From: Nitrospira sp. CG24A
GTDB lineage: Bacteria > Nitrospirota > Nitrospiria > Nitrospirales > Nitrospiraceae
NCBI GenBank assembly: GCA_002869925.2
Contig: NEWT02000037.1
Location: 60,822-102,473, forward strand
Length of the DNA stretch: 41,652 nucleotides
Reading direction: 5' to 3'
A model generated the notes under the pieces. It saw only the letters and a list, made by a program, of their open reading frames with translations, had not been told where the DNA came from and ran no database searches. This document shows, in pieces, positions 32,127 to 40,053 of this stretch (its first letter is position 1; the number at the start of each line of letters is the position of its first letter). The position numbers were made by a program, and so were the translations under genes.

Positions 32127-32144
32127 TGAATCAGTTCTGATTCA
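32127..32144 (+). promoter_or_regulatory. Upstream activator palindrome, site A
   Basis: TGAATC (32127-32132), AGTTCT, GATTCA (32139-32144). The same TGAATC-N6-GATTCA is found at 36468 and 39271. It lies about 73 bp ahead of the -24 element of the sigma-54 promoter at 32215. Confidence 0.65.
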
Positions 32145-32214
32145 CTCTCCCGCCCCCAAAGACTGCCCGCCTTCACAATCTCGTGAATTTATGAGCCTGT
32201 TAAGTGAGATCATT

Positions 32215-32231
32215 TCGGCATGAGAGTTGCT
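32215..32231 (+). promoter_or_regulatory. Sigma-54-type promoter of the 604-codon gene
   Basis: TCGGCATGAGAGTTGCT has GG at 32217-32218 and GC at 32229-32230 with exactly 10 bases between, the -24/-12 rule. The transcript would start near 32242 and carry a leader of about 215 bases before the ATG at 32459. Confidence 0.65.
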
Positions 32232-32458
32232 CGCCTGCCCGTACAGCAGGGGGCACACAGGGTGAAGAAGGAATTCGCTGCAGAAGAAACAGGTCCTCTG
32301 TTGCCCGATCAAGCATATCGCATACTCTAAGACAACCATGGCAGGATAACTGGGCGCAGGGGTAGACAGTTGAACCCAAGTGGGGCAGGTACGAGGCGAA
32401 AGGCGAGGGACCCAAGGGAAGGTAAAGGGCACGGGACAAATAGCATAAGGAGGCAGTG

Positions 32459-34270
32459 ATGAAACCATTGGTGCGTGTGCTTGTTGTCACAGATGATTGG
32501 CCGGGTGCTGCGGTTAACGGTGGTTTCCTACCGTGGACGGGGCAGACTGTCGCGGAGGCTACGGGACGTAACTCCCGCGAGTTCCATTTAGGCGAGTTTA
32601 TCAGCGTGCTACAAAATACCGCGTGGGTGGGCTTTGACGTAGAGATTACCAAGGCGCACCGCACCCCGTCTGGCACTGCGGGGACAGACGCGCAAATTAA
32701 GGCTGATCGTGGCGCGGATGTGGTGAACTTCCGCTTCAATCAGCCTTTTACTGTGAATGGACAGTCGCGCACACTTGCGGATTACGACATGGCTTTGCTG
32801 TTTGCTATTGAAGCCGGGAACCCCAACCCCGCGTTCGCGCCCGAGGCCGAAGCGATCGCGCAGTTCATGGAAAACGGTGGCGGCTTCTTCGCCACCGGCG
32901 ATCATGCCAATTTGGGTGCACCGCTGTGCGGACTGATCCCGCGGGTGCGCAGCATGCGCCGCTGGTGGTCCGGCGCTGGACCCAATGGAGAGCCGTCGGC
33001 ACCACCGCCGACGGGGGCCACGCGGCACGACACCACGCAACCCGGGCTGGATGGCGTGACACATTTCGAAGACCAATCCGACGAAGTAGCGCAACCCATT
33101 ACCCCCGCGTGGTATTCCGCGGGCTTGAGCGTCAAGCAAGGCTACCTTGCCAGGAAATACTTGCCCCACCCGTTGTTGTGCTCACCACAAGGCGCCGTCA
33201 CGTTTTTACCAGACCATATGCACGAAGGTTGGTGCGAAGTGCCGGCCAGCTTCAATGGCACGTTTACACTCGGCGGCAACACCGTGCGCGAATATCCTGA
33301 CTACACGCCAGTCAATCCACCTCCAGGATATGTGCCAACGCCGTTGGGGCCTGAGATCGTGGCAACGGGCCAGGTGAAACGAAATACGACGTCGCCGGCA
33401 TTGGATACAGACGCGCATACCGGCGGCACTGCCCCTACCGATGAGATCACCTTTGGTGTGATTGGCGCATGGGACGGCCACCGTGTCGGCAAAGGCCGTG
33501 TCGTAGTGGACTCCACCTGGCATCACTTTTTTGACATCAACCTCACCGGTGATCGGTATCTTGAAGACGAAAGTTTAGGGCCACAGCATGCGCAAAAACT
33601 GCACGGCTTTTATGTGCCTGACAGTACGGGTGGTCGTGTGCCTTGCCAACAATACAAGATGATTCAATGGTATTTCCGTAACATCATCTATTGGCTCATC
33701 CCTGCTGGACGCCATCAAACCATTTGGTGGCACACGTTGTTCGAAGTGATCAAGAGGCCTCGCCTGCTGGAAGAACTCGGCGCGGCAAGCGAGTTTAAGA
33801 CATTCGAGCTTGAACAGGTTCTCTACTTCAGTCAGCTCGCGGAAGACTATCTCAGTCAGGCGCGCGGCGCCTGTGCGACCTATACCATCAAAGTTATTCT
33901 CTACAAACCCAGGATTCCATGGTGGGAATGGATTCAGGAAGTAGAGGATGTGTGGGACCCGGTGGAAAAACTGGGCAACAAACATCTGTTGGGTGATTTG
34001 CAGCGAGATATCGTTACCGGCGCCCTAGGCGCGGGTCCGCGGCCGGACGTCATGAGTAAGATGACTCTAGGTGCGGCGGTAGTGTCCGCTGCCATTGCAC
34101 GCAGCCAGGCGGCCACCTCCAAAGAACGTATTGATGTGGCGGAATTGGCAGCACGCCTGCTCCCCGATGTCGCCGTCCATGCGGCAGGCCTGTTTGCTCA
34201 ACAACTTAAAAGCGGAGTGGAGTCGTCCAAACGCTTGCTAGAAGCGGCGGCTGCCGCGCAGCGCCGCTAG
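32459..34270 (+). CDS. Large protein with glutamine-amidotransferase-like fold, unknown function
   Basis: I start at ATG 32459, preceded by AAGGAGGCAGTG. The protein is about 603 residues. An N-terminal Rossmann-like part has LVVTDDWPGAA and an ADYDMALLFAIEAG strand. It then gives FMENGGGFFATGDHANLGAP and GLIPRVRSMRRWW, as in the ThuA/GATase-like class in which an elbow residue sits after the Gly-rich turn. The middle is beta-rich (FGVIGAWDGHRVGKGRVVVD), and the C-terminus is helical. No signal peptide is seen. It follows a sigma-54 promoter and a long leader, so it is tightly controlled. Confidence 0.75.
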   Translation: MKPLVRVLVVTDDWPGAAVNGGFLPWTGQTVAEATGRNSREFHLGEFISVLQNTAWVGFDVEITKAHRTPSGTAGTDAQIKADRGADVVNFRFNQPFTVNGQSRTLADYDMALLFAIEAGNPNPAFAPEAEAIAQFMENGGGFFATGDHANLGAPLCGLIPRVRSMRRWWSGAGPNGEPSAPPPTGATRHDTTQPGLDGVTHFEDQSDEVAQPITPAWYSAGLSVKQGYLARKYLPHPLLCSPQGAVTFLPDHMHEGWCEVPASFNGTFTLGGNTVREYPDYTPVNPPPGYVPTPLGPEIVATGQVKRNTTSPALDTDAHTGGTAPTDEITFGVIGAWDGHRVGKGRVVVDSTWHHFFDINLTGDRYLEDESLGPQHAQKLHGFYVPDSTGGRVPCQQYKMIQWYFRNIIYWLIPAGRHQTIWWHTLFEVIKRPRLLEELGAASEFKTFELEQVLYFSQLAEDYLSQARGACATYTIKVILYKPRIPWWEWIQEVEDVWDPVEKLGNKHLLGDLQRDIVTGALGAGPRPDVMSKMTLGAAVVSAAIARSQAATSKERIDVAELAARLLPDVAVHAAGLFAQQLKSGVESSKRLLEAAAAAQRR

Positions 34271-34378
34271 CAAGGCTAAATGAACGTAGGGGTATCATGC
34301 ACGATTTTCAGGGCTGACGATGACACTTCCTCAGTCCCGACACACGATCTCGTTTTAGGCGCTTCCGCTCCCCCTCCG

Positions 34379-35947
34379 TTATGGCGCGGGCTTTAAGGAC
34401 ACCACGCTCTGAGCCCAGGCTTGGGCAGCCGGCTGGGTCGCTCCCACGGACTGAGCGCCATGCAGGGCCTTGTTCAGGGTGTACATCAGTGTGCCATCCA
34501 CGGTTGGGCTCGTGTCGCGGTTCACCTGCTCGGTTTGCCCGGCTCCGTTCGTCACGTTTTGATCCTGCGTGAGTGCGCAGCCCAGGATCATGGCATTGTC
34601 GGACACCGTGGTGATCGAGGACGAGAGGGCCGCCGTCGTCCCCGTGTTCCCGGTGTGCGCATCGATGGGCGTGGTTTGATTGACGCCGTTGAACACGATG
34701 GCGTTGGCAATGCCATAGCTGCTCAGCGGACTGGTCCACGTGACGACGAGATTGGCCGTCCCCACCGGGGGATTTTTCAGATACCAGATTTCCGACCCAA
34801 AACTATCACTCGCGGGGAGGGCGATCCGATCATGGCGGACCTTCGTCAACGCCACCCCGCCACGCGTGGCCGACAAGACCGGAATATCCCCGGCCACCGT
34901 GTCTCGTGCCGCGGTGCAGAGCACCAAGACTTTATTGCTGCCCGCAAGGACGGTATGGGCAAATGTAATGGAGTTGGTGGTATTGGATGCCGCAGAGGTG
35001 GTGACGTTCGACACCGAAGGGCCGGGGGGAATAGCCATGTTCACGGGCAAGGTATAGAGGCTATCGTTTCCAGCCACATCGAAGGCATTGACGGTGTACG
35101 AATAGCTCACGCCGGCCTGCGCACTGGCATCGACATACGAGGTCGCAGGGGCCGCGATGGGTTGGAATGTGCCGGTGGGGTTACAGGGAGCTGGATTGCA
35201 TCGCCGCAGATGATACCCGGCCAGTCCGCTGCCGGGCACAGGATCGAAGGAGGCCGACCAGGAAATCGTCTTCGTGGCCGGGTTGGTCGTCAGAAACTCC
35301 GGCACGAATGGGTCGACGTTATCGATCACCGCCGACGCCGGCCCGATGCGCGCATTCCCGACCGCAACACGATCCCACCACATGTTACCGATGCCACATT
35401 GAACGAAAATCTGGGCTTCCGAAAACTTTGTTGTTGATGGGTTAGACAATCCTTGGCTATTGATGCTACTCGGGGTCGGTCCCCTCATCTGCAAATTCAA
35501 CCGCTCAATGTATAGCGTTCCGTTGACCCAGAGGCGCACGAGGCCGTCTGCTTGCCCAGGTGTATTCATCTTCCATTCGGTCTCAACTTGATCCCACGCC
35601 GTCGAGGAGACAGGCGGACCGCCTTGGTATAGAACAGAACCCATTGACCAGCCTCCCTCTAGGCTAATCGTATAGCTCTGGTTGTACATCAGCACTGTTA
35701 GAACCGGCCAGGTCTTCGCTCCACCTACGCTTGGGGCGAACCTAAACATTTTCGTACTATTACTACTTGCGATAAGAAAACCTGGGGACTTGCGCACAGC
35801 GGCTCTGGTGAAAAGCCAGTCCTGACCAGAAAAGAAATAGTAAATCGATGGGTTGTCTAATCCACAACTCACGCCCGGTGAGGACGTGTTGTCCACAAAT
35901 GTTGTCTTAACGGACTTCGACCCTGAGAACGACAGCGAGTTCGTCAC
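34379..35947 (-). CDS. Surface lectin/FnIII protein, main part (frameshifted from its signal peptide)
   Basis: The 522-residue frame starts at GTG 35947 with TNSLSFSGSKSV, which is really the continuation of the fragment at 35944-36159. Residues 1-190 are a concanavalin-like jellyroll (GQADGLVRLWVNGTLYIERL, NMWWDRVAVGNARIG). A fibronectin type III domain follows (SGLAGYHLRR, SYTVNAFDVAGN). The C-terminal third is a beta-sandwich with VLVLCTAARD and MILGCALTQDQ, seen in cell-surface proteins. It is expected outside the cell and to bind or cut polysaccharide. Without its signal it would stay in the cytoplasm. Confidence 0.7.
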   Translation of the reverse strand: MTNSLSFSGSKSVKTTFVDNTSSPGVSCGLDNPSIYYFFSGQDWLFTRAAVRKSPGFLIASSNSTKMFRFAPSVGGAKTWPVLTVLMYNQSYTISLEGGWSMGSVLYQGGPPVSSTAWDQVETEWKMNTPGQADGLVRLWVNGTLYIERLNLQMRGPTPSSINSQGLSNPSTTKFSEAQIFVQCGIGNMWWDRVAVGNARIGPASAVIDNVDPFVPEFLTTNPATKTISWSASFDPVPGSGLAGYHLRRCNPAPCNPTGTFQPIAAPATSYVDASAQAGVSYSYTVNAFDVAGNDSLYTLPVNMAIPPGPSVSNVTTSAASNTTNSITFAHTVLAGSNKVLVLCTAARDTVAGDIPVLSATRGGVALTKVRHDRIALPASDSFGSEIWYLKNPPVGTANLVVTWTSPLSSYGIANAIVFNGVNQTTPIDAHTGNTGTTAALSSSITTVSDNAMILGCALTQDQNVTNGAGQTEQVNRDTSPTVDGTLMYTLNKALHGAQSVGATQPAAQAWAQSVVSLKPAP

Positions 35948-36159
35948 TTCGTTTTGTTATGGCCGGGAGCGTTGATAAACTCAAGCCCGAAATCATTCCA
36001 TCCCTGACATGGGAAATCGTTCCCACTGCCTGACGCACAGGACTCGAAATCGGCATCGACAAACACGGCCGCCTGCGCCGGTAGTGTAGGTATGGCGAAT
36101 AGGAATAGGATGCACAGGATGCGTGTGATCAACAATCGCGTCATCATCATTCCCTCCAT
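35944..36159 (-). pseudogene. Signal peptide and N-terminal fragment of the lectin/FnIII protein
   Basis: The 71-residue fragment has a signal peptide (RILCILFLFAIPTLPAQA) and the start of the jellyroll (VFVDADFESC, CQGWNDFGLEF) and ends GHNKTK-stop. The next frame takes over at VTNSLSF: one missing base in the AACAAAACGAAG stretch would join them as KTKVTNSL. The overlap is GTGA. Confidence 0.65.
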
Positions 36160-36455
36160 GTTCTGTTCAACTCGGTGAGAGCACTTTCGACGCCGCTAGA
36201 GACGATGATCGTGATTCGTGAAGCTAAGATTAGGTATCGGGGATTGGTGAATATCGGGGCGATAGGCGTGGGGAGCATGATCGAACATGGACCGTCTCAG
36301 TATTAATGAGCTGCCCTACGTACTCCTGCTATGCACACTGTATCTGCCGATAAATCAACCTTGGCGTCTGCGATTTGTGCGTTCGTATCAATAGGGCCTG
36401 AGATAGGTACCCGATCCGGCTAGCGAGGCAGACAGCCTGTCTGAGAGGATCTGAA
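36160..36455. other. Divergent intergenic region
   Basis: No gene is seen. It holds the promoter of the lectin gene on the minus strand, but no clear -10/-35 or sigma-54 pair is visible in that direction. Confidence 0.35.
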
Positions 36456-36652
36456 GTGATACAGAGGTGAATCAGTTTAGATTCATAGAGGACGCATGCC
36501 TCACTCGCTCGCTTTCAACTCCTCCCTTCCCATCCTTCGATTCATCTGACTGAAATATTACGTATTCTTGGGAGGTGGTCCTGCCAATTCCCCACAAAGT
36601 TGGCTGTGTGTTTGCTCTGGCCCAGGTGAGATTCTCTCGGCATGAGAGTTGC
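36456..36652 (+). promoter_or_regulatory. Control region B: activator palindrome and sigma-54 promoter of the PilZ gene
   Basis: TGAATC-AGTTTA-GATTCA is at 36468-36485, and a further GATTCA half site is at 36539. The sigma-54 core TCGGCATGAGAGTTGCT has GG at 36639-36640 and GC at 36651-36652. The sequence aligns along most of its length with 39259-39436 and shares the -24/-12 core of site A nearly letter for letter. Confidence 0.7.
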
Positions 36653-36699
36653 TTTTTAAATTGGTATTACGAATGTCCACTGCGAAGGAGGAGTTCGCC

Positions 36700-37056
36700 A
36701 TGGGAGGAACAATACACCAGTTGTCCGAACAGGAACCCCAGGTGCTCTGGAGAGAACCACGGCGGTCTGTGCGAGTGGTTGTGGATTTTCGGATAGTCGT
36801 TGCGAATAAGGCAGGTCTCGCCAGCGGGCAGGTGATCGATATGACGGCGAGGGGGTGTGGCCTCCGCCTCGCGAAAGCCCTCAAGCCCGGGCAATATCTG
36901 ACGCTTATGATGTACCCAGGCGGCAGTCCCGCCGCCGTGCCATGCGATGTGGGCAGGGTACAGTGGGCCGAAGGAGACCGGGCGGGTCTCGCCTTTCTGT
37001 CTCTATCGCATGAGAACGAGCGAAGGCTACACCAGCTTTGCGGCGATCGGTTCTAG
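36700..37056 (+). CDS. PilZ-domain protein, probable c-di-GMP receptor
   Basis: I start at ATG 36700 (AAGGAGGAG ahead); the frame open from 36649 covers the promoter itself. The 118-residue protein has REPRRSVRV (RxxxR) and later VIDMTARGCGLRL (the D-x-S/T-x-x-G motif, with Thr for Ser), followed by the barrel strands LTLMMYPGG and VGRVQWAEGDRAGLAFLS. PilZ proteins bind c-di-GMP and change motility, exopolysaccharide or surface functions. A sigma-54 promoter with an upstream activator site lies ahead. Confidence 0.85.
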   Translation: MGGTIHQLSEQEPQVLWREPRRSVRVVVDFRIVVANKAGLASGQVIDMTARGCGLRLAKALKPGQYLTLMMYPGGSPAAVPCDVGRVQWAEGDRAGLAFLSLSHENERRLHQLCGDRF

Positions 37057-37068
37057 TTCGAGGCCTAG

Positions 37069-37299
37069 ATGCTCACGGAACGTATTCCATATCCGCCCGT
37101 CGAGAATGTCGAGGCAGGTATCCCCTCCGGTCGGGCCATCGGGACCGATATCCGGTGTCCCTTCTGTTTTTCAGTACAGTGCCATCGGTCTCTGCGGCAT
37201 GGGGGGCGTGATTTCTTCCGTCGATTGTTCGGCAAGTTTCCCTGGCGTTGCCATGGGTGCAGGAAGCGATTTTATTTACGAAAACGGTCCCTTGACTGA
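37069..37299 (+). CDS. Small zinc-ribbon protein
   Basis: The 76-residue protein has CPFC near residue 30 and CHGC near 62, a four-cysteine zinc ribbon, with a basic middle (SLRHGGRDFFRRLFG) and a basic end (RKRFYLRKRS). It probably binds nucleic acid or a protein. It starts 12 bp after the PilZ stop, so the two form an operon under the same sigma-54 control. Confidence 0.7.
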   Translation: MLTERIPYPPVENVEAGIPSGRAIGTDIRCPFCFSVQCHRSLRHGGRDFFRRLFGKFPWRCHGCRKRFYLRKRSLD

Positions 37300-37461
37300 C
37301 AATCGCCATACACGACGGCTCGTACTCGTGGCAGGTATGTGGGCAGGGGAGCCTTTCCGAGTCTCTCTCCCTTTTTGCCTCCTAGTACTCAAATGGTGGA
37401 AACGGTAGGTCTTTTCGGTCCTATTCTCGAATGAGTAGGCCCTAGTAGTTTATTCGAGTAA

Positions 37462-37483
37462 AACTGGGGGAACCCCCAGTTTC
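37462..37483. terminator. Perfect 22-bp palindrome
   Basis: AAACTGGGGG-AA-CCCCCAGTTT is a perfect palindrome with only two bases between the arms. CTCGAAT...ATTCGAG flanks a pair of short arms just ahead. It may end the PilZ transcript, or be a protein-binding site for the gene at 37568; the tight loop makes an RNA hairpin less likely. Confidence 0.45.
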
Positions 37484-37567
37484 GCAACCTGTATCTTCAG
37501 GCGCAGGGTAGTGCTTCATCTCTCTGACGTCTCATTATGGGCACTGCGCTCCACGGAGGTGACGACC

Positions 37568-37804
37568 ATGGCGATCATTATCACCACCATGTTTTTGCTA
37601 CTGCCGGTGCTCGTTGCCCTGTACCTCTCTGTGTCCGGCGTGTTCACCAATCGGAGGTCGTTTCAGTCTGTCTTTTATGCCCTGTTGGCCTTCTTTGCGC
37701 TGACTGTTGGGATCAGCTTGAGCATTCAATATTCCTACCAAAGCTACGATCCCCCGGCAACAACCCCGGTTTCGCTGAGTGAGGTTCTGTCAAAAACTCT
37801 ATGA
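37568..37804 (+). CDS. Small membrane protein
   Basis: The 78-residue protein starts at ATG 37568 with GGAGG ahead. It has two membrane helices (IIITTMFLLLPVLVALYLSV and YALLAFFALTVGISLSIQY). No family is recognised. It overlaps the end of the facing gene by 6 bp. Confidence 0.6.
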   Translation: MAIIITTMFLLLPVLVALYLSVSGVFTNRRSFQSVFYALLAFFALTVGISLSIQYSYQSYDPPATTPVSLSEVLSKTL

Positions 37805-39064
37805 ATAGAGGGCGCGAACGATCGTCGTCGTATTGAACAGCATCGCGTTCAGGCGGGTGTAGGCTGCGTGACCATAGTAGTGATCGCGCACATTCGTTGA
37901 CCCCGTGGAATCTTGATAGTCGGCGAGAATCCCCAGTCCCTCACTCGGGATACGGACAGCACGGCGGGCACATTCGAGCCATCGTTCGAATCCATCAAAC
38001 GGCTCAACCATTTCCCACAGAGCTTTGTTTGCTGCTTTTGCCGGCTCGGTCGTCGGCACGGCGTCGCTGCCGGCTACGGCCAGTTCCTGCACGTAGTCGC
38101 CGCCCCATGCAATCGGCATCTCCATTGTGATCTGAGGTAATTCCATTTTCGAGAGCCATGTTTTGCCGTCGGTTCGCATGGTGCGATGGTTCACGATATG
38201 CAGCAGCTTGCCGAGGTCTGATGGATCCCATCCGTATCGCACCGGCATGCCAAACGTGACGATGTCCAGCGCTGCTCCATTGAGAAAGGTGCCGTTCGAC
38301 AGCAACGGAACGACACGTTGGATTGTCGAGATGATGTCTGGTCGATTGATCTGCGAGGCAAAAGCCGACAAGAGATCGAATAGACGCATCCGGCTACTAT
38401 TCGCGGTCACACATAAGAGGTTTGAGACGAGAGCGAGGATTAGTCCCGCCTGCCCATGAGCCTGTACCAGGATGCGATCTCCTTGGCCCAGCTTGTGTGC
38501 CTCGACCCAGTCGCGAAGACGTCCGAGCATTGAGACAGCCGCCATGGCACGGCCCAGGTGATGGTGTTCGCAGGACCAGAGTTCACGGACGCAATGGATC
38601 GGGCGTTCGAGACCTTGGTTAAGCGATTGCCTCATCAGTTCCGCATAGACGTCCGTAAAGTTTCCTGCGTCGCCGAGCTGATCGTCGAGGAGGTCCTTGG
38701 TCGGCTTATCATTGGCGAGCGGTGACTTTAACCCACCGGGCAGCGGGGGAATGCCATTGCTGCCTTCACGCATCAGGGCCAATAAGGCATCGAGCCCCGC
38801 CACGCCGCGTGAGTAGCCCCGTTTGAGCCCGCCCAGTTCATCCAACCGCTGTACCCCGAACAGGTCGGTTCCCATGACGGAGCCGTGTAGCAAGACGATC
38901 ACGCGGACACCGGCTTGCGACAACGTAGTCCCACATTGCGCCATGGCGTCGAGCCAAGCTGGAGCACCGGGCTCCAGGCCCGGCGTCAGTTCCGCTATGG
39001 CGAGACGGTCGCCGGGGTTCTTCCGCGACAGCTCATCGTATTGGAAATTATTCTCAATCGGCAT
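37799..39064 (-). CDS. Alpha/beta-hydrolase-like protein without the usual serine
   Basis: I start at ATG 39064; the frame extends to 39136, but those residues (MADCFSILL) are translated dispersed repeat. The 421-residue protein has the oxyanion-turn-like VIVLLHGSVMGTD and then ILVQAHGQAGLILAL at the place of the nucleophile elbow, where GxSxG reads AHGQAG. C-terminal HYYGHAAYTRLN holds candidate His. It is probably a lipase-fold protein that lost or moved its nucleophile. No signal peptide is seen. The function is unknown. Confidence 0.65.
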   Translation of the reverse strand: MPIENNFQYDELSRKNPGDRLAIAELTPGLEPGAPAWLDAMAQCGTTLSQAGVRVIVLLHGSVMGTDLFGVQRLDELGGLKRGYSRGVAGLDALLALMREGSNGIPPLPGGLKSPLANDKPTKDLLDDQLGDAGNFTDVYAELMRQSLNQGLERPIHCVRELWSCEHHHLGRAMAAVSMLGRLRDWVEAHKLGQGDRILVQAHGQAGLILALVSNLLCVTANSSRMRLFDLLSAFASQINRPDIISTIQRVVPLLSNGTFLNGAALDIVTFGMPVRYGWDPSDLGKLLHIVNHRTMRTDGKTWLSKMELPQITMEMPIAWGGDYVQELAVAGSDAVPTTEPAKAANKALWEMVEPFDGFERWLECARRAVRIPSEGLGILADYQDSTGSTNVRDHYYGHAAYTRLNAMLFNTTTIVRALYS

Positions 39065-39111
39065 GCGGGAGTTACATACCCGATGTTGGCAACGCACTGC
39101 AACGAAAGACA

Positions 39112-39135
39112 GCAGGATGCTGAAACAGTCCGCCA
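39112..39135. repeat. Dispersed repeat fragment at the 5' end of the hydrolase-like gene
   Basis: gcaggatgctgaaacagtcc then gcca matches the end of the element at 3444-3567. It provides false extra codons to the gene frame. Confidence 0.65.
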
Positions 39136-39258
39136 AACCTCCGGGCAGGTGCGGTTCAGTAAGGTGCCGCAGCGGATTAGGAGTACATTCTTTTCGAAAT
39201 CGTTCTCGTCTTGCACGGTGCCATTCGACTTGCGATAGCCTCTCTGAGTGAATCGGAG

Positions 39259-39436
39259 GTGATACAGGGATGAATCATTTTAGATTCATGAGAGCACGAG
39301 TGGCTCATTCGCTCGCCATCAGACCCCTCCTTCCATTTTCCCGATTCATCTGAGCGAAATAGAACGCATTTTCGTCAGGTGGTCGCACCAGCATTCCACA
39401 AGGTGAAGGGTGTTTCTGCTCTAGCGCAATTTTTGC
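39259..39436 (+). promoter_or_regulatory. Control region C: activator palindrome and sigma-54-like promoter of the DGR-type lipoprotein
   Basis: TGAATC-ATTTTA-GATTCA is at 39271-39288, with a half site TGAATC at 39249-39254 and another GATTCA at 39343. The core TAGCGCAATTTTTGCTT has the -12 GC at 39435-39436 and AG for GG at -24, with correct spacing. It aligns with control region B. Confidence 0.6.
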
Positions 39437-39495
39437 TTAAAAAAAATGGGAAGAATGAAGAGGCAATCCCTAGCGATACAGCACAGGAGGATAAT

Positions 39496-40053
39496 ATGAA
39501 CATCAGGATGCGTGTAGGAATGGGGAGCATCGTGCTCATGCTGGGCGGACTGCTCCTGGCAGGTTGCGGGTCAATGGCGCAGAGCGCGGCGGTGATCGAC
39601 CTGAGCGGCGTCACCCAGAACTGGGATAAGGTGATTCCTGCGGCGCAGCGCTTCGTGGTGCTGCCGGCCTTCAACAACGACGCGGTTCGGGATAACGAAA
39701 CCGGCCTGGTGTGGGAGCAATCCCCCTCGACCGCGACGAATGACTGGACCAACGCACGGTTCGAATGTGCCCGCCGCACCACCGGCGGCCGCCAAGGCTG
39801 GCGCCTGCCCTCGGTGCACGAGCTGGCCAGTCTGGTCGATCCGTCCGTCGCAGCACCGGGCCCGACCATCCCGGCTGGCCATCCCTTTACCAACGTCCAG
39901 TCGTCCCACTATTGGTCGGCGGCGACGTCCGCAGACTTTCCAACGAGCGCGTGGCTCGTGTTCTTCGGCAGTGGCGACGTGTTCACCTCCGTTAAGGCCG
40001 GCAGCCTCCACGCTTGGTGTGTTCGTGGGGGCATGAATGCGGATACGTATTGA
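39496..40053 (+). CDS. DUF1566 (Lcl) lipoprotein, probable DGR variable protein
   Basis: I start at ATG 39496 (CAGGAGG ahead). The 185-residue protein has lipobox LLAGC (MGSIVLMLGGLLLAGC). The DUF1566/CLec-like domain shows NETGLVWEQSP, GGRQGWRLPSVHELASLVD and SSHYWSAATSADFPTSAW, and ends HAWCVRGG. In DGR targets this last part is the variable region. The codons expected to vary here (AGC, CTC, TTC, TTC, GGC, AGT, GAC, TTC, TCC, GTT, GGC, AGC, CTC, CAC) all end in C or T, as when AAC/AAT template codons mutate at A. It is surface-exposed, probably for binding ligands. The promoter is of sigma-54 type. Confidence 0.8.
   Translation: MNIRMRVGMGSIVLMLGGLLLAGCGSMAQSAAVIDLSGVTQNWDKVIPAAQRFVVLPAFNNDAVRDNETGLVWEQSPSTATNDWTNARFECARRTTGGRQGWRLPSVHELASLVDPSVAAPGPTIPAGHPFTNVQSSHYWSAATSADFPTSAWLVFFGSGDVFTSVKAGSLHAWCVRGGMNADTY

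Follow-up and report, generated by a model that had tools for sequence, protein, structure and literature searches.

A palindrome upstream of -24/-12 elements points to a predicted sigma-54 regulon of envelope and secreted proteins in Nitrospira

Nitrospira are major nitrite oxidisers in which genetic work is difficult, and little is known about the control of their gene expression. Sensors that pair a periplasmic binding protein with a kinase are familiar from TorT-TorS and LuxP-LuxQ. On the sigma-54 side, the PrsK/PrsR regulon of PEP-CTERM proteins displays a 17-nt motif ending in TTTACA, at a mean of 62.8 nt before a -24/-12 element (Haft et al. 2006, PMC1569441), and sigma-54 as a controller of the bacterial exterior is presented as a general trend in the excerpted text of Francke et al. 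(2011, PMC3162934). Here, we analyzed a 41,652-nucleotide stretch of Nitrospira sp. CG24A (contig NEWT02000037.1, positions 60,822 to 102,473; the window), in which the palindrome TGAATC-N6-GATTCA recurs upstream of -24/-12 elements. In the literature searched, whose coverage is incomplete, we found no description of this motif, of sigma-54 regulons in Nitrospira, or of two-partner secretion (TPS) linked to sigma-54. We consider it likely that the palindrome is the site of a Fis-type response regulator of the enhancer-binding protein (EBP) class, encoded in an ABC_sub_bind/kinase/EBP operon, which would activate sigma-54 promoters of genes for envelope and secreted proteins.

A first-pass annotation of the window had reported three perfect palindromes, and all of them are present, on the plus strand like their second copies, the promoters, and genes A to C given below: site A (TGAATCAGTTCTGATTCA, 32127..32144), site B (TGAATCAGTTTAGATTCA, 36468..36485), and site C (TGAATCATTTTAGATTCA, 39271..39288), each a motif match and a predicted activator site. 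The -24/-12 elements reported with them and the core common to sites A and B, GGCATGAGAGTTGCT, proved to be as described. Measuring from the start of the palindrome to the start of the -24 box, promoter A (CGGCATGAGAGTTGCT, 32216..32231) is 89 bp from its site, promoter B (CGGCATGAGAGTTGCT, 36638..36653) is 170 bp from its site and 46 bp 5' of the start codon of a PilZ gene, and promoter C (TAGCGCAATTTTTGCT, 39422..39437) is 151 bp from its site, with a -24 that reads AG instead of GG and is weaker than the consensus. B has an alternative -24/-12 candidate (TGGCTGTGTGTTTGCT, 36601..36616), 133 bp from the palindrome. Exactly 22 bp upstream of sites B and C there is a second copy of the motif, which is degenerate at B (AGGATCTGAAGTGATACA, 36446..36463, 3 mismatches) and better preserved at C (TGAATCGGAGGTGATACA, 39249..39266, 1 mismatch). 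The window alone is weak evidence, with 5 motif matches at no more than two mismatches versus a shuffled mean of 2.1.

We searched the whole genome (G000; 3.36 Mb in 40 contigs, 95% complete), using the reversed pattern as a control. The palindrome occurs nine times in its perfect form, while the control gives no match, so the motif is far above chance here, as it is in relatives. Three of the nine copies are those of the window (contig C31), the others being on C22, C27 (two, in tandem), C29 (two), and C33; relaxing the third half-site position to A or T raises the count to 15, the control remaining at 0. The regulon thus includes seven promoters with perfect sites besides the duplicated C (see below), plus one at C5:73777, and because it is larger than the window suggests, the label of a "three-locus" regulon in the first-pass annotation had to be abandoned.

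The palindrome is tied to -24/-12 elements. Under a strict rule, which asks for GG, TTGC, and no fewer than 8 of the 12 consensus letters at 60–200 bp from the palindrome, an element is found near 8/9 perfect sites in this genome, a result obtained without selection of loci; site C fails the rule because its -24 is AG, and a plausible element is present on one side at every perfect-site locus. Extending the analysis to 106 distinct perfect sites from this genome and, for the most part, its relatives, a strict element is found in this range for 89 of them (84%), compared with 5.2% for positions drawn at random from these loci, figures to be read loosely given that orthologous promoters lack independence and that the presence of sites guided the choice of many loci. 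The distances of the 106 sites from the -24 box peak at 90, 112–113, 132–138, and 158–159 bp, so successive rungs are ~22–23 bp apart; promoter A is on the 90-bp rung and the alternative element of B on the 135-bp rung. Tandem palindromes, where present, are mostly 21–23 bp apart, and faint copies are visible ~20 bp to either side in palindrome-aligned sequences. The half-sites are separated by N6 in 97 cases and by N3 in one, with no other spacer length seen in loci that were themselves chosen by N6. We find a conserved palindromic and putative upstream activating sequence ~80–200 bp upstream of a -24(GG)/-12(GC) element. Together, the enrichment, the linkage to -24/-12 elements, and the stepped distances indicate, as read from these genomes, that the palindrome most likely serves a sigma-54 regulon as its upstream activator site.

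Which protein might recognize it? Since this genome encodes EBPs of the GAFTGA type, 15 of them complete and with GAFTGA visible in their translations, rpoN is presumably present. The palindrome is found near none of these 15 EBPs, and profiling of their C-termini across genomes revealed no EBP with a distribution matching that of the sites. In genus g6, pairs of sites ~10 kb apart flank a cluster in which a TPS exoprotein (PF05860) and its ShlB/POTRA transporter are encoded together with CHAT/TPR and DUF928 proteins; the second of the two sites precedes genes for a TonB receptor and/or an ABC_sub_bind protein, a histidine kinase, and an EBP. The candidate operon is one in which ABC_sub_bind (PF04392) is followed by a HAMP-GAF-HisKA histidine kinase and the EBP, adjoining the TPS-CHAT/TPR-DUF928-TonB-receptor cluster. 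The EBP has the receiver, Sigma54_activat (AAA+), and HTH_8 domains of an NtrC-type activator (proteins of L186 and L218), and its recognition helix region reads NQT[KR]AAEELGLQRTYLTKLLRQK. Palindromes, perfect or with 1–2 mismatches, and a -24/-12 element precede this operon in loci L186-L189, L221, L222, and L226-L234, and the same kinase-EBP operon, with both features upstream, is also found in genus g1 (G020, G024) and in G118, G098, G114, and G126. Where its upstream region is visible, the operon mostly carries them. In G009, G012, G018, G036, and G169, the EBP is present with 0–1 perfect sites, and copies with 1–2 mismatches precede its operon. A second, diverged set of substrate-binding protein, kinase, and EBP, with the variant recognition helix LLGLQRTYLTRLIRQRG, is found in L235, L236, and L237 (G118, G098, and G130), in all three cases near degenerate palindromes.

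The EBP and the sites co-occur. Among 108 genomes, at least one perfect site is found in 55/63 genomes with the EBP versus 9/45 without it (Fisher 1e-12) and at least three in 39/63 versus 2/45 (Fisher 3e-10), both values ignoring shared ancestry. The EBP is present in 39 of the 41 genomes with at least three sites, the exceptions being this genome and G116. The receiver-AAA+-Fis response regulator of the ABC_sub_bind/histidine kinase/activator operon is our best candidate for the activator, a prediction made from gene content and site placement. Besides the neglected ancestry, several observations weigh against it: G116 has four sites and no EBP; G034, G065, G080, and G107 have two sites each and no EBP; promoters B and C of the window are outside the main distance rungs; the candidate was not found in the present assembly, which is 95% complete; and a paralogue at C29:507550, with 50% identity to the candidate and a near-identical recognition helix, could bind instead. 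The earlier proposal that one EBP acts at these sigma-54 promoters through the palindrome passes the genome-wide test suggested along with it, the motif being far more frequent than chance and associated with promoters at stepped distances, and there is an activator to propose, although that candidate is absent from this assembly.

The paralogue belongs to a competing explanation that we regard as unlikely, yet worth keeping in sight, namely that a genuine regulon is activated by some member of the set of 15 complete EBPs in the assembly, e.g., L026 (C29:507550), L029 (C16:11591, a receiver EBP), or L028 (C11:73654, a PAS-type EBP). L026 has the recognition helix LQRTYL in common with the candidate, but genes of its type occur in genus g26, whose genomes have 0–1 sites. 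L029 has orthologues in G000, G007, G028, G026, and G004, with weaker matches in four more genomes that bear sites, while L028 is present in the three g1 genomes richest in sites; however, neither is found in G020 and G024, though these two genomes have phased sites. In addition, the palindrome is absent near all three genes in this genome. We favor the EBP of the ABC_sub_bind operon as the predicted activator and tentatively put its absence here down to an assembly break. In the close relative G007, which has 10 sites, the EBP lies 1.8 kb beyond a dehydrogenase gene; the kinase gene ends just upstream of the EBP, and there are scaffold gaps in between. Contig C13 of this genome is syntenic with that locus at 94–95% identity and ends 361 bp past the dehydrogenase, in locally recurring sequence. 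The simplest reading is that the kinase-EBP operon of this genome would lie in the gap after C13. Copies of the repeat GTTGCACTTGGAGTTAGAACTCAAG stand between the dehydrogenase and kinase-EBP genes in G007 (L218:13200-13860), and a similar copy is found where C13 ends (L063:1-400); this repeat is a possible cause of the break.

Two further features of the sites concern the link to sigma-54 itself. In palindrome-aligned sequences, the spacer is A/T-rich and oriented, reading NNWTTN toward the promoter, and likely orthologous targets (orthology being judged by eye) keep the site across lineages; examples are a HEAT-type lipoprotein (5 genomes), a LuxR-type regulator (2 genomes), and a small membrane protein (3 genomes, the distance being 147–148 bp). 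The palindrome might instead be the site of a repressor or an architectural protein unrelated to sigma-54, found near -24/-12 elements since both mark long intergenic regions, in which many of the palindromes do lie. We find this very improbable in view of the 84% versus 5% association, the discrete distances to the -24 box, the fixed orientation of the spacer relative to the promoter, and the distance conserved at orthologous genes. The promoter regions of B and C (window 36400-36760 and 39200-39560) align at 74% identity over 198 bp (E 6e-27), which marks them as duplicated copies of one promoter and not as independent occurrences; that the three window copies might all be a chance or repeat artefact, descended from a single duplicated repeat, is nevertheless already refuted by the genome-wide count of nine perfect copies with differing spacers and flanks (control 0) and by conservation of the motif in other genera, with up to 16 sites in another genus.

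Site numbers vary widely across the Nitrospiraceae. In 61 genomes, the reversed control always gives 0, while perfect sites number 0–19 per genome and 3–19 in the site-rich ones. Among 137 family genomes, those of genus g6 often have 4–16 sites and those of g26 0–1, the listed g26 sites mostly having G/C-rich centers. Pfam matches on the targets include PilZ (window B and C5), Lcl_C (window C), TraT, a vanadium-haloperoxidase-like protein, PagL, a beta-lactamase-fold protein, a GerE regulator, and a weak M66 peptidase match; TonB receptors and the TPS exoprotein are also among the targets, and several small target proteins are without a Pfam family. Many of the named targets are predicted to be surface, periplasmic, or lipoproteins. 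The "surface or biofilm programme" suggested for the window is in broad agreement with this list, to which TraT, PagL, lipoproteins, PilZ proteins, TonB receptors, and the TPS exoprotein all contribute. In G028, an IS3-like transposase open reading frame (ORF) lies directly downstream of a palindrome and -24/-12 element (L082:5606-6600), perhaps an insertion behind a regulated promoter.

Within the window, gene A (32459..34270) encodes a 603-aa protein of no known family, for which one close relative was found, in another Nitrospira metagenome-assembled genome. A Pfam scan and a PDB sequence search gave no match for it, leaving its earlier description as a "GATase-fold" protein without support. 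Gene B1 (36700..37056) encodes a 118-aa PilZ-domain protein and is probably co-transcribed with gene B2 (37069..37299), whose 76-aa product has CxxC...CxxC zinc-ribbon-like motifs, read in the sequence, and no Pfam match. Gene C (39496..40053) encodes a 185-aa lipoprotein with an Lcl C-terminal domain (Lcl_C). It had been described as "DGR-type" (diversity-generating retroelement), which is unsupported, there being no reverse transcriptase domain among the window ORFs scanned (template repeats were not searched for). The genes behind the duplicated promoters B and C are thus unrelated, one encoding PilZ and the other the Lcl_C lipoprotein. A 445-aa ORF without a Pfam family (37799-39136) is divergent from site C, and the two could share the intergenic region that separates them. 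Elsewhere in the genome, a second PilZ gene (L055:6778-7689, at C5:73777) is 43% identical to B1 and is preceded by the palindrome TGTATC-N6-GATACA, with CGGCATGATAGTTGCT at 90 bp; in the ORF that follows this gene, there is a weak match to the C-terminal part of a phage tail sheath.

Taken together, these findings suggest a model in which the substrate-binding-like ABC_sub_bind protein would present a ligand to the kinase, which would phosphorylate the EBP. Dimers of the phosphorylated EBP would then occupy one or more 18-bp sites, 21–23 bp apart and mostly ~90–160 bp upstream of the -24/-12 element, where they would contact and activate sigma-54 RNA polymerase and so turn on secreted and envelope proteins. 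Predicted targets here would be gene A, the PilZ operon, the Lcl lipoprotein, TraT, and the haloperoxidase-like protein, among others, and the EBP operon would activate itself via its own palindromes and promoter. On a wider scale, we lean, with less assurance, toward a family-wide Nitrospiraceae system in which ABC_sub_bind, kinase, and EBP control the TPS exoprotein cluster via tandem 18-bp sites at 22-bp steps, this lineage having redeployed the site array to lineage-specific envelope genes, with 0 to ~19 perfect sites between congeners. For Nitrospira, the analysis yields a predicted regulator and its DNA site, together with the type of promoter and a group of targets most of which are surface or secreted proteins, and the regulon places several functionally uncharacterized proteins of these genomes in a biological context.

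How does this regulon compare with the systems introduced at the outset? It resembles PrsK/PrsR in having a two-component NtrC-type EBP and a sometimes repeated motif with a -24/-12 element downstream, as well as in its mostly single genes with long upstream regions, its exported or surface products, and its discovery by bioinformatics. It differs in that TGAATC-N6-GATTCA starts 90–159 bp before the -24/-12 element and that its genomic partner is the TPS/CHAT/TonB/ABC_sub_bind cluster. The TIGR02915 cut-off (502.6 bits) is reached by none of nine EBPs scanned in this genome. We rejected identity with the PrsR/PEP-CTERM regulon because motif, spacing, and hidden Markov model score all differ, the nearest relative, L075 in G028, scoring 483 bits. 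This PrsR-like EBP (L075:7499-9538) is encoded behind a site and a strong -24/-12 element, which suggests a cascade of sigma-54 activators; it was itself rejected as the activator, since, despite the site upstream of it, its conservation does not follow that of the sites. The targets, largely envelope, lipoprotein, and secretion genes, are in line with the trend of Francke et al. (2011, PMC3162934), the excerpted text of which names no such Nitrospira regulon or motif. As in NtrC-family EBPs acting at tandem upstream sites, we find a receiver-AAA+-Fis helix-turn-helix protein, palindromes upstream of -24/-12 elements, and an operon that is apparently autoregulated; what sets the present system apart is the sequence of the site, the stepped distances at which several copies stand in tandem, and an ABC_sub_bind protein encoded beside the kinase. 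The latter arrangement recalls TorT-TorS and LuxP-LuxQ, in which a substrate-binding-type protein is encoded beside a membrane histidine kinase, except that here an ABC_sub_bind (PF04392) protein and a HAMP-GAF-HisKA kinase are predicted, by analogy, to interact and to signal to a sigma-54 EBP.

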